Positions 662 to 9,554 of a DNA stretch of 25,095 bases are shown here, in pieces. The notes below the pieces were generated by a model that was given only the letters and a program-made list of their open reading frames with translations, did not search any database and was not told the origin of the DNA. The DNA lies in IMG/VR virus record IMGVR_UViG_3300027708_001672, positions 1 through 25,095 of that record; one strand, 5' to 3'. This DNA is from a virus. The translations under genes and the position numbers were made by a program. The first letter of the stretch is position 1; each line of letters starts with the position of its first letter.

Positions 662-1246
662 TTATTCTGTAACGAAATCATCAAAACCTGTTTCTAATGT
701 TAATTGGTCACCATCTTCCAATATGATATTATATTGAGGAAGTGGCAAGTTTATCCAAGGTCTACCCGCCTGTAAGGGCAAGGGTTCTGTATTGTGTGTG
801 GCAACGTTGCCTACATATTGCTCAGGTAACAAGTTAATGTCATAATGGTTTCTGGCACGATAAAATTGCGCATTAGTGTTAGGGTTAGTTAACAGTGCAG
901 AGCCAAATGCATAGCTAACACCTGGTTGGAATATTCCGTCTCTAATGGTAACTGTAACGCCATCACGCGGCTCAAATTGTACATTTGTAACAATCCACGT
1001 TGGGTGATCATACACATACCAAAGTTCAGCTAAACTGTCAAATGCGCCGCCGTGATCAACAAAATAAGCAGTAACACCAGCTTCAGTACTGAGATTAAGA
1101 TGACTACCGATATCCGAGCTGACAGATCCTGGTACGGTTCCATTGCCAGCTACAGTCCATCCTAATCGTTTGGTCTGTGCTAGTTCCAACTTGGCTACTT
1201 GCCTAAGTTCTTTGTTAGATAGTGTTGATATGCCGTTGGCTGCCAT
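662..1246 (-). CDS. Putative virion (tail-associated) protein, 194 aa
   Basis: Begins [20 protein letters not shown]; the ATG follows a GAGG at a longer than usual spacing. The N-terminal 30 residues form a charged helix ([16 protein letters not shown]). The rest is beta-rich, with no signal peptide or membrane segment. It contains a putative catalytic-free sandwich-like region ([22 protein letters not shown], residues about 61-82). The style and place, next to a fibre gene and behind a late-type promoter motif at 1264-1273, suggest a structural or tail protein. I do not recognise a named family. It is the first gene of a leftward unit that diverges from the hemA-type gene. Confidence 0.6.
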
Positions 1247-1287: not shown

Positions 1288-2487
1288 ATGATTAATCACG
1301 AACCTTTCACAAAACTCATTGCAGATTTAAAAGACTCGGGCAAGTATCGTGTGTTTAACGATATTGTACGAGAAACAGGTAAATTTCCCAAAGCTATTTG
1401 GTATGGGCCATACAACATTAAGAACATTGTAAACTGGTGTTCAAATGACTACTTGGGCATGGGTCAAAACAAAGTAGTACTAGATGCTATGCGTACAGCA
1501 TTAGACATGACTGGAGCGGGTTCGGGCGGTACACGTAACATTGGCGGCACTAGTCATTATCATGTAGCATTAGAACATGAGCTTGCTAGTTTACATAAAA
1601 AAGAAAAAGCTGTACTATTTTCAAGTGCTTATGTAGCTAATGAATGGACACTAATTGCCCTAGCTAAAATTATTCCAAATATTGAATATATCAGCGATGA
1701 AAATAACCACAACAGTATTATAGTAGGTATTAGTCATAGTAAGGCTAACAAAGTTATCTTTAAACACAACGACTTAGACGATCTGGAACAAAAATTAAAG
1801 ATTAGTTTTGCTCAAGGTAAAACTCCTTGTGTGGTATTTGAATCAGTATACAGTATGGACGGAGATGTTAGCCCTATGTCAGAAATATGCAAGTTGGCTA
1901 ACAAGTACAAGGCCATAACCTATATAGATGAAGTTCATGCGGTAGGATTGTATGGTAAAACTGGCGGCGGCAAAGTCGAAGAACTTGGGCTTGAAGACAA
2001 GATAGACATAGTCAATGGAACCTTGGGAAAGGCCTTTGGAGTACAAGGAGGCTACATTGCTTGCGATAAGATTGTAGCAGATGCCATTCGAAGTGTTGCC
2101 GCTGGTTTTATCTTTACAACTAGTATGAGTCCTGTGACTTGTAGTGGAGCATTGGCTGCTATCAAATGGTTAAAGGATCATAATGAAGTTCGTGAGAAAC
2201 ATCAAGAACGTGCTCAATTATTAAAGACTAAGCTAAAAGCTGCTGGGATTCCTGTTATGGACTGTAGTACTACACACATTGTTCCTGTACTAGTAGGCGA
2301 TGCCAAACGTGCCAAAGCTATGAGCGATGCATTGTTAACTGACTATAGCATTTACTGCCAGCCCATAAATTTTCCCACAGTTGATGTGGGAACAGAGAGG
2401 TTGCGTTTTGCACCTACTCCGTTTCATGATGATGGTATGATTGAGGATCTAGTTAATGCACTAGTCCATGTGTTTAATACAAACTGA
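1288..2487 (+). CDS. hemA: 5-aminolevulinate synthase (ALAS)
   Basis: Condenses glycine with succinyl-CoA to 5-aminolevulinate, the first step of tetrapyrrole synthesis by the Shemin route; PLP-dependent, alpha-oxoamine synthase family, cytosolic. The 399 residues match the usual bacterial length. Visible motifs: [11 protein letters not shown] (49-59); [17 protein letters not shown] (76-92), whose GTRNI distinguishes ALAS from BioF and Kbl; [11 protein letters not shown] (213-223); the PLP lysine K248 in [14 protein letters not shown] (277-282); [10 protein letters not shown] (371-380). No key motif is missing. The ATG at 1288 is chosen because it gives the normal ALAS N-terminus; the upstream extension is not ALAS-like. 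Only a weak GGATAAG precedes it. It is the lone plus-strand gene in the first 21 kb and overlaps the convergent gene by 14 bases. ALAS genes are known from aquatic phages, so an auxiliary metabolic role is likely. The BioF/Kbl alternative is much less likely. Confidence 0.93.
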
Positions 2488-6204: not shown

Positions 6205-6642
6205 CTAGAAACTATTATTGAACCAGCCTATTCGGCGTCCTTCAGCAATACGTCGATCATGTTCTTCTACACTGCCTGGAAAACGCCAAGCCCACACAGC
6301 TACACAGAACATGAATATGCCTGTGTAAATAATACCGCGAGCAGGTACATTGGTAAAATACATAATAGCCAAGCTGGAGCTCATCATGGCTAGCATAAAG
6401 AACTTCATCTTAGTTGGGAATACACGCTTCTCGCCCCAATTGGTCAGGAAAGGTCCAAAGATTTTGTGATTGTATAACCAAGCATGCATCACAGGTGAAC
6501 CTTTGGCAAAGCAATAGGCCGCAAACACCACAAAACAACTGTAAGGTATACCGGGAGTGATTAACCCTACATAAGCCATGCCTAGGCTTAAAAATCCCAA
6601 GACTTTCCAAAGGAATCTTTTTATTGTATGAATTGTAGCCAT
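6205..6642 (-). CDS. DUF454 (YbaN-like) inner-membrane protein, 145 aa
   Basis: The N-terminal half matches the DUF454 pattern: K-R-F-L-W-K-V-L-G-F-L-S-L-G-M, a GLITPGIP turn, F-A-A-Y-C-F-A-K-G-S-P, then H-x-W-L-Y-N-H-K-I-F-G-P followed by W-G-E-K-R. Hydrophobic segments at about residues 10-32, 35-48, 82-98 and 103-120 make it a small polytopic inner-membrane protein. No catalytic residues are known for the family. The start overlaps the end of the HNH gene by 22 bases, so both are probably read from the promoter at 7181-7209. In a phage it may alter the host membrane; its actual role is unknown. Confidence 0.85.
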   Translation of the reverse strand: MATIHTIKRFLWKVLGFLSLGMAYVGLITPGIPYSCFVVFAAYCFAKGSPVMHAWLYNHKIFGPFLTNWGEKRVFPTKMKFFMLAMMSSSLAIMYFTNVPARGIIYTGIFMFCVAVWAWRFPGSVEEHDRRIAEGRRIGWFNNSF

Positions 6643-7180: not shown

Positions 7181-7209
7181 ATTATACACTAGATTACAGT
7201 TTATGTCAA
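7181..7209 (-). promoter_or_regulatory. Consensus sigma70-type promoter for the HNH-DUF454 unit
   Basis: On the minus strand TTGACA (7204-7209) and TATAAT (7181-7186) are separated by exactly 17 bases. Both hexamers match the consensus. The -35 overlaps the 3' end of the YqgE/AlgH gene. The leader to the ATG at 7136 would be about 40 bases. The -10 is embedded in GTATAATAAATAC, so a late-type motif may overlap the early-type one. Confidence 0.75.
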
Positions 7210-7749
7210 TAATCGTTGTGCAAACTCATTAGCACTTTTATCCAGTGCGGCGCACCATTGATCTGAACCGTCGGACTCAAAAGTTAATTCCAAATCTGCG
7301 CTTGTAAGACACCAGCTATTTTCAATCTTCCAAGGATGAGTTCCAGCTAATTCTCCTTGAAGTTGTCCTGGAGCCCACCCGCACATTCCTAAAAATAGTC
7401 GCCAATGTTTGGGTTCATCCCCATCTCGTAATCTTGGAAGTATATCGTCTGCACTACTTAAACTAAAATCTTTATTGATTCTAAGTGTGTTCTTACTCAA
7501 CCACTCTGTTGAATGAAGTAGTGTTAGACTTTGATTACTTACAGGACCGCCAACATACATCATACCAGGTAAGTCTAATTCCATACCTAGCTGTTCTCCA
7601 AAATCTCTAATAGATAACTGACTTTGTTTGTTTAAAACAATGCCTAATGTTCCTTGTGGGGATTGCTCTGTAATCATTATTACAGTTTTGTGCCAAAAGT
7701 TTCCTTTAACGGCGGGAGGAGCGATTAACAAATTACCTAATAAATTCAT
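7201..7749 (-). CDS. YqgE/AlgH family protein (DUF179), 182 aa
   Basis: Typical family features are in order: GNLLIAPP at the N-terminus, V-I-M-I-T-E, G-T-L-G-I-V-L-N-K, MYVGGPV (residues about 64-70), then WRLFLGMCGWAPGQLQGEL (about 116-134) and SWC near the C-terminus. Length equals bacterial homologues (about 185), so it is intact. The biochemical function of the family is not settled. No signal peptide; cytosolic. It lies 11 bases after the lytic transglycosylase gene and has a consensus promoter for the next unit within its 3' end. A phage copy is unusual and may mimic or titrate the host protein (inference). Confidence 0.9.
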   Translation of the reverse strand: MNLLGNLLIAPPAVKGNFWHKTVIMITEQSPQGTLGIVLNKQSQLSIRDFGEQLGMELDLPGMMYVGGPVSNQSLTLLHSTEWLSKNTLRINKDFSLSSADDILPRLRDGDEPKHWRLFLGMCGWAPGQLQGELAGTHPWKIENSWCLTSADLELTFESDGSDQWCAALDKSANEFAQRLLT

Positions 7750-8735: not shown

Positions 8736-9554
8736 TTATTGATTTAAATACTCAAAGACATTTAGCCACTTGCGCTTTCCAATAGTTTCTTTAAGGTGTG
8801 TTAAATCTGCACATGTTTTGGAACGCATACGGGCTTGTTCTTCTGCAGGAATTGGCTCTAGTTCAATATGAACGCCTTCTATTTCAGCAATTTCTTCAGC
8901 GATATCTAAGAAGCTATGTGCAAGTCCTGATCCAACATTCCATATGCCCGAACCTTTAACTTCTTTGATAAAATCAATGTGTAATCGACAAACATCTCCT
9001 ACCCAAGTCCAATCTCGTTTGATGTTCTCTGCGCCTTCCCATACTGTAATCTTGCCTGTTTTGCGGGCTTCTTCTCTCCACTTGTGTATTATGTTTGAAC
9101 GGGTTCCGCGAAGATGCATATATTTTCCGTAAACATTAAAGTAACGAAATCCCTGTACAAATATACTTTGTGGCTGTTGAAATACCCAGCGATCAAATAG
9201 ATACTTACTCCAAGCATAAGGAGTTTGTGGATTGCAAGGAGCATACTCGCTAAAGTCTTTTGTATTACCGTAGACACTACTTGAACTTGCATATTGCAAG
9301 TGTACTCCGTGAGTATTACATTCTTTAAACAACAACTGACTGAACTCTAAATTTTGTTTTAGAATTCTATCAACATCTGGATTTGTCATATCGGCAATTG
9401 CACCTAAGTGTATTACCCAATCGTAGTTTACTATATCAGGTAAACTATCCGGATCCCAGTCCCAGCCGTCAACTTGCCAGTCGGACTCGTGTGCCATCCA
9501 AGCTAACATGTTCCGGCCAATAAAACCATTATGGCCAGTTACTAATACTCGCAT
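8736..9554 (-). CDS. NAD-dependent sugar-nucleotide epimerase (heptose-6-epimerase-like), 272 aa
   Basis: Extended short-chain dehydrogenase/reductase. Rossmann signature TGHNGFIG (6-13), active-site serine in ASSSSVYG (89-96), and Y113-x3-K117 in PYAWSKYLFD. The stretch GFRYFNVYGKYMHLRG and the following RDWTWVGDV resemble ADP-L-glycero-D-manno-heptose-6-epimerase (HldD), though the protein is about 40 residues shorter than typical HldD. The substrate cannot be fixed from sequence; other UDP- or GDP-sugar epimerases are possible. Full catalytic triad present. It is separated by one base from the upstream small gene. Together with the SGNH-like pair upstream it suggests surface-glycan or virion-sugar modification. 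Confidence 0.85.
   Translation of the reverse strand: MRVLVTGHNGFIGRNMLAWMAHESDWQVDGWDWDPDSLPDIVNYDWVIHLGAIADMTNPDVDRILKQNLEFSQLLFKECNTHGVHLQYASSSSVYGNTKDFSEYAPCNPQTPYAWSKYLFDRWVFQQPQSIFVQGFRYFNVYGKYMHLRGTRSNIIHKWREEARKTGKITVWEGAENIKRDWTWVGDVCRLHIDFIKEVKGSGIWNVGSGLAHSFLDIAEEIAEIEGVHIELEPIPAEEQARMRSKTCADLTHLKETIGKRKWLNVFEYLNQ

Follow-up and report, generated by a model that had tools for sequence, protein, structure and literature searches.

A viral 5-aminolevulinate synthase gene in a T4-like aquatic phage, with conserved neighbors and a predicted late promoter

The window analyzed here is one whole viral record of 25,095 bases, and its gene valaS (alaS below) most likely encodes a functional viral 5-aminolevulinate synthase (ALAS) of a T4-like aquatic phage. 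We hold this reading with considerable confidence on the basis of sequence comparisons. The gene would be transcribed late, as a leaderless mRNA, from a T4-late-type promoter of its own that is arranged divergently with that of a neighboring gene. In the whole phage, a heme oxygenase and a bilin reductase encoded by the phage itself, with genes that would lie 25–47 kb upstream, probably accompany this flux of 5-aminolevulinate (ALA), as does, probably, a small DUF454 membrane protein. Viral AlaS (vAlaS) was described by Wegner et al. 2024 in marine and freshwater phages, where according to the main text it is ~55% identical to Pelagibacteraceae AlaS and occurs singly or together with hemO and pcyA/X (PMC11480375). 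Its clade, context and residues assign the window gene to this published family, so that the auxiliary metabolic gene recognized in a preliminary description of this DNA is of a kind already reported.

The alaS gene occupies positions 1288–2487 on the plus strand, from an ATG start to a TGA stop, and its translation gives a protein of 399 residues with no internal stops. A longer mechanical reading frame from a GTG at 1222 runs into the divergently transcribed neighbor and overlaps it. The minus strand opposite alaS is full of stop codons and the gene is thus on the plus strand, in agreement with the coordinates given in the preliminary description. Its residues and length are those of an intact enzyme: the GTRNI block (residues 81–85, codons at 1528–1542, plus strand) and the PLP Schiff-base lysine K248 (codon at 2029–2031, plus strand, placed by alignment to Rhodobacter capsulatus ALAS, 2bwn) are kept, as the preliminary description had noted, and the catalytic residues D214 and H217 (window numbering) are also present. 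In length, catalytic residues and GTRNI block the protein is like both 2bwn and the Pelagibacteraceae ALAS, and its best relatives of solved structure are ALAS enzymes (7x98 and R. capsulatus 2bwn). None of the catalytic and ALAS-specific positions varies among 51 viral sequences.

Since ALAS belongs to a single superfamily with the other alpha-oxoamine synthases, and the models for BioF, Kbl and serine palmitoyltransferase all match the window protein too, the gene might be taken for one of these paralogs. We regard this as extremely improbable. The protein matches the NCBIfam model TIGR01821 with 560.8 bits (1.5e-168), far over the cut-off of 338.55, whereas it falls under the cut-off for BioF (314.9 against 426.45), for glycine C-acetyltransferase (316.1 against 460) and likewise for serine palmitoyltransferase. 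Every ALAS row examined has T82, N84 and I85, where the BioF/Kbl-like outgroup rows have S, L and L. Maximum-likelihood analysis of 81 proteins, run as a quick tree whose only support values are SH-aLRT, sets the window protein far apart from those outgroup rows. A BioF/Kbl identity is rejected at the sequence level on these three grounds, and the phylogeny that the preliminary description had proposed as a check places the gene in a viral ALAS clade. Among the PHROGs no family matched the protein.

A scan of viral contigs returned 527 related stretches; the best 80 of the 527 are 79–91% identical to the window protein, and all 80 are free of stops over the matched stretch. Codon comparison of the window gene with its nearest relatives gives dN/dS of 0.06–0.11; for 67 unsaturated pairs the median is 0.068, and alaS is under strong purifying selection. 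The enzyme, judged probably active in the preliminary description, is a true ALAS and very probably active. The complementation proposed there has already been done on a homolog, in that CB_2 vAlaS complements ALA-auxotrophic E. coli and makes ALA in lysates (PMC11480375). A structural model of the CB_2 protein has also been published.

In the tree the window ALAS lies inside a wholly viral set, itself part of a viral group whose nearest cellular neighbors are ALAS of the Pelagibacteraceae (SAR11). The window protein is ~61–62% identical to two Pelagibacteraceae copies, and the highest identity to any cellular copy is 71%, to that of the Neisseriaceae bacterium PsAf (see below). Among GenBank phage records the matches are 27–37% identical and are BioF/Kbl-type or unannotated, none of them being vAlaS. 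ALAS is a housekeeping gene of alphaproteobacteria, and a cellular contig misread as viral could in principle carry such a gene, although the chance of this is minute: the gene order around alaS is common to dozens of viral contigs of up to 356 kb, the T4-type capsid protein Gp23 is encoded in long relatives of 185, 356 and 148 kb, and the protein is closer to viral copies than to any cellular one. A cellular contig is rejected on the viral gene order and the Gp23 of the relatives, and the phage is T4-like, Gp23 being seen in its long relatives. The window gene thus resembles vAlaS such as that of CB_2 in enzyme, in its aquatic T4-like phage setting and in a viral clade beside SAR11 ALAS (PMC11480375). 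A search for pmoC/amoC as a host clue gave no matches in 50 related records, and was uninformative because the controls were silent too.

The window protein has R341 at the position of the heme-feedback residue H342 of R. capsulatus ALAS and no equivalent of C400; the heme-feedback residues are also missing in the published vAlaS (PMC11480375). This is not a phage hallmark. Most of the bacterial ALAS sampled likewise lack the histidine: of the 27 ALAS rows taken from bacterial assemblies (a set that includes six rows from phage-like contigs or the PsAf capture), just one has it at the H342 position, and loss of H342 therefore cannot be read as a viral adaptation.

One bacterium carries a phage-type copy. 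The alaS of PsAf (L090:5001-6188), which lives in symbiosis with the sucking louse Polyplax serrata (PMC9376444), falls in the viral clade and is flanked by ordinary bacterial genes. The PsAf genome contains hemB, and no match to hemA of the C5 pathway or to hemL exceeds the cut-off, an absence that is not proof since the assembly is a draft. These observations suggest that PsAf exchanged its C5 pathway for a phage-type ALAS, with the direction of transfer resting on the tree, and PsAf would then be natural evidence that a phage-type ALAS can carry heme synthesis.

What the phage gains from the enzyme admits several answers. The preliminary description held that ALA supply limits tetrapyrrole synthesis in the infected host; this is one possible explanation among others, and such a limitation is not evident from anything in the sequence. 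The enzyme might instead mainly spare host glutamyl-tRNA, replacing the tRNA-using route to ALA in a C5 host and leaving charged tRNA-Glu for protein synthesis. This has been put forward for non-alphaproteobacterial hosts (PMC11480375), and PsAf, with a phage-type ALAS alongside no recognizable C5 pathway, fits it. We nevertheless think it unlikely as the main role, as vAlaS is proposed also for phages with alphaproteobacterial hosts, whose route to ALA does not involve tRNA-Glu (PMC11480375), and tRNA sparing leaves the heme oxygenase and bilin reductase that accompany alaS unexplained.

These two genes are widespread in the relatives. Among 50 related viral records, bilin reductase (PF05996) is found in 16 and heme oxygenase (PF01126) in the same 16, side by side, and the pair is always upstream of alaS, 25.5–47 kb away and on the opposite strand. 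Of the 17 records whose sequence extends at least 33 kb beyond alaS on its upstream side, 16 have the pair; the exception is L034, with 46 kb upstream and no heme oxygenase. One record (G025, the record of locus L042) has two such pairs, at 25654-26857 on the plus strand and 33003-34216 on the minus strand. In a separate search of 12 long marine alaS records, eight gave a heme oxygenase match, one of these being an end fragment and one carrying an internal stop. As in the published vAlaS phages, hemO and pcyA/X of the window's relatives lie elsewhere in the genome, as a broken cassette, though here at 25–47 kb from alaS and not "nearby" (PMC11480375).

Neither gene occurs within the 25 kb of the window, which holds 1,287 bases upstream of alaS, so that a pair 25–47 kb away could not show. 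The preliminary description had alaS inserted alone; this is true of the 25-kb fragment and probably not of the whole phage, as nearly all relatives with enough upstream sequence have the pair and DUF454 is a recurrent neighbor. We infer that the missing part of this phage probably encodes hemO and a bilin reductase, while the example of L034 means that it could lack heme oxygenase too. A role in which the ALA flux feeds a phage-specific product, with heme made solely as a substrate that heme oxygenase and bilin reductase of the phage break down to yield bilins or release iron, draws on the frequency of the two genes in the long-enough relatives and in the marine records, the end fragment counted. 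It is quite possible, though short of probable: the distance of 25–47 kb in the window's lineage means that co-expression is only assumed, some alaS records are without heme oxygenase, and the window has neither gene. The preferred reading, a functional viral ALAS whose flux is probably paired with these enzymes and with a DUF454 protein, draws also on the surroundings of the gene.

As the preliminary description put it, alaS is inserted in reverse, being on the plus strand among minus-strand genes. That these are late virion genes holds only in part: one neighbor is a transglycosylase with weak similarity to a baseplate hub, and the other named neighbors are a deaminase-domain protein, DUF6321, a non-specific endonuclease, DUF454, an HNH endonuclease and an AlgH-like protein. 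The divergent neighbor (662–1246, minus strand) encodes a protein of 194 residues with no assigned function, and its start codon is 41 bp from that of alaS. The AlgH-like (DUF179) gene, at 7201-7749, is conserved near alaS in 57 of 80 related viral loci. A nucleotide-sugar epimerase/dehydratase gene is located at 8736-9554, and a different epimerase-like gene abuts alaS in L041-L045. Elsewhere, a ribonucleotide reductase-like gene (identified by eye) lies directly upstream of alaS on the same strand in L244:1997-3316 and similar loci; it adjoins alaS in 18 loci of one phage group, in a setting unlike that of the window.

The DUF454 gene (6205–6642, minus strand) encodes a small, YbaN-like membrane protein and belongs to the DUF454/YbaN inner-membrane family (PF04304), matching at 94.2 bits against a cut-off of 35.1. 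DUF454 is the commonest neighbor within 3 kb of viral alaS, at 74 of 107 distinct loci with enough flank (the next commonest family reaches 41), and it is also the commonest gene directly adjoining alaS (42 of the 107 loci), in three arrangements. Phages of the window's lineage have it on the opposite strand, a few kb downstream of alaS; in L034, L035, L046, L047 and L053 it directly adjoins alaS and is convergent with it; and in phages from other queries and in the phage-like contigs L091, L092, L093 and L096 it comes right after alaS on the same strand, often overlapping it. It lies directly before alaS in three of 114 loci. The loci were picked by alaS similarity and are not independent, so that the varied arrangements weigh more than the counts. 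The contigs with alaS and DUF454 that are binned as bacterial metagenome-assembled genomes (L091, L092, L093, L096 and L147) look like phage contigs; the bins are Neomarinimicrobiota, Flavobacteriales and Rhodobacteraceae Water_Bin34, and in the tree their alaS genes are among viral sequences.

This adjacency recurs in the phages examined here and is absent from the 20 bacterial DUF454 loci sampled, in which the 25 commonest families among 71 neighbor proteins show no heme theme. Some viral contigs have DUF454 with no alaS in the vicinity; a heme oxygenase is present in seven of 20 records of this sort. In E. coli, ybaN is a member of the Fur regulon with unknown function (PMC7157518), and an Avibacterium DUF454 gene is upregulated under iron restriction (PMC7970244). 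We offer the tentative and still doubtful proposal that alaS and DUF454 form a conserved two-gene functional unit of T4-like aquatic phages, in which DUF454, at the membrane, may handle heme or a tetrapyrrole intermediate, or may tune the iron or heme state, late in infection.

Late expression is predicted from an element conserved upstream of alaS. T4-type late promoters have the core sequence TAAATA, and in 46 distinct alaS upstream regions of the window's lineage, the window counted, this core ends 5–8 nt before the alaS ATG in 40 and exactly 7 nt before it in 33. A TATTTA-N-TAAATA inverted repeat is present in 39 of the 46, and a Shine-Dalgarno-like site in none. The window's own box is degenerate, TAAGTA at 1277–1282 on the plus strand, 5 nt before the ATG, and may serve the same function; no Shine-Dalgarno site of the AGGA/GGAG/GAGG type precedes the start. 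The intact divergent half of the promoter-like inverted repeat, GATAAATA, lies at 1266–1273 on the minus strand and points toward the 662–1246 gene, the repeat being conserved in relatives. The late-promoter octamer GATAAATA by itself is not above chance frequency in the window; octamer counting was accordingly rejected as promoter evidence, and the argument is one of position and of conservation in relatives.

Other genes of the viral loci (L002-L081) fall into two classes by the position of TAAATA. Where it lies 5–8 nt before the ATG, a Shine-Dalgarno-like site is found in one of 89 genes, and where it lies 15–29 nt before the ATG, in 73 of 100. The close class (here 4–8 nt) is represented in 18 of 162 gene families, the AlgH-like and epimerase families among them. 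AlgH-like homologs are the largest group among the leaderless-type genes. A TAAATA at 5–8 nt would put the transcription start at the ATG or within ~2–3 nt of it, and the two classes suggest that leaderless late genes are widespread in these phages and include alaS. We therefore predict late, leaderless expression of alaS from the element in its relatives, with the window's degenerate box as its counterpart. Neither this type of promoter nor the linkage to DUF454 (or YbaN) is mentioned in the main text of PMC11480375.

The observation that began this analysis is correct; the gene is of a kind already known from phages, and its context has several features that are new and testable. The window enzyme is one more member of a published auxiliary metabolic gene family, and the 527 related stretches show how common that family is; the view that viruses lost the heme-feedback histidine as an adaptation is corrected. 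The comparison adds as testable points a recurrent DUF454 partner, the presence of heme-degradation genes in almost every relative with enough upstream sequence, a type of promoter from which late and leaderless expression is predicted, and a louse symbiont with a phage-type ALAS and an apparently lost C5 pathway. If the proposed functional unit with alaS is real, it would give a first functional lead for DUF454, a widespread family without a known function.
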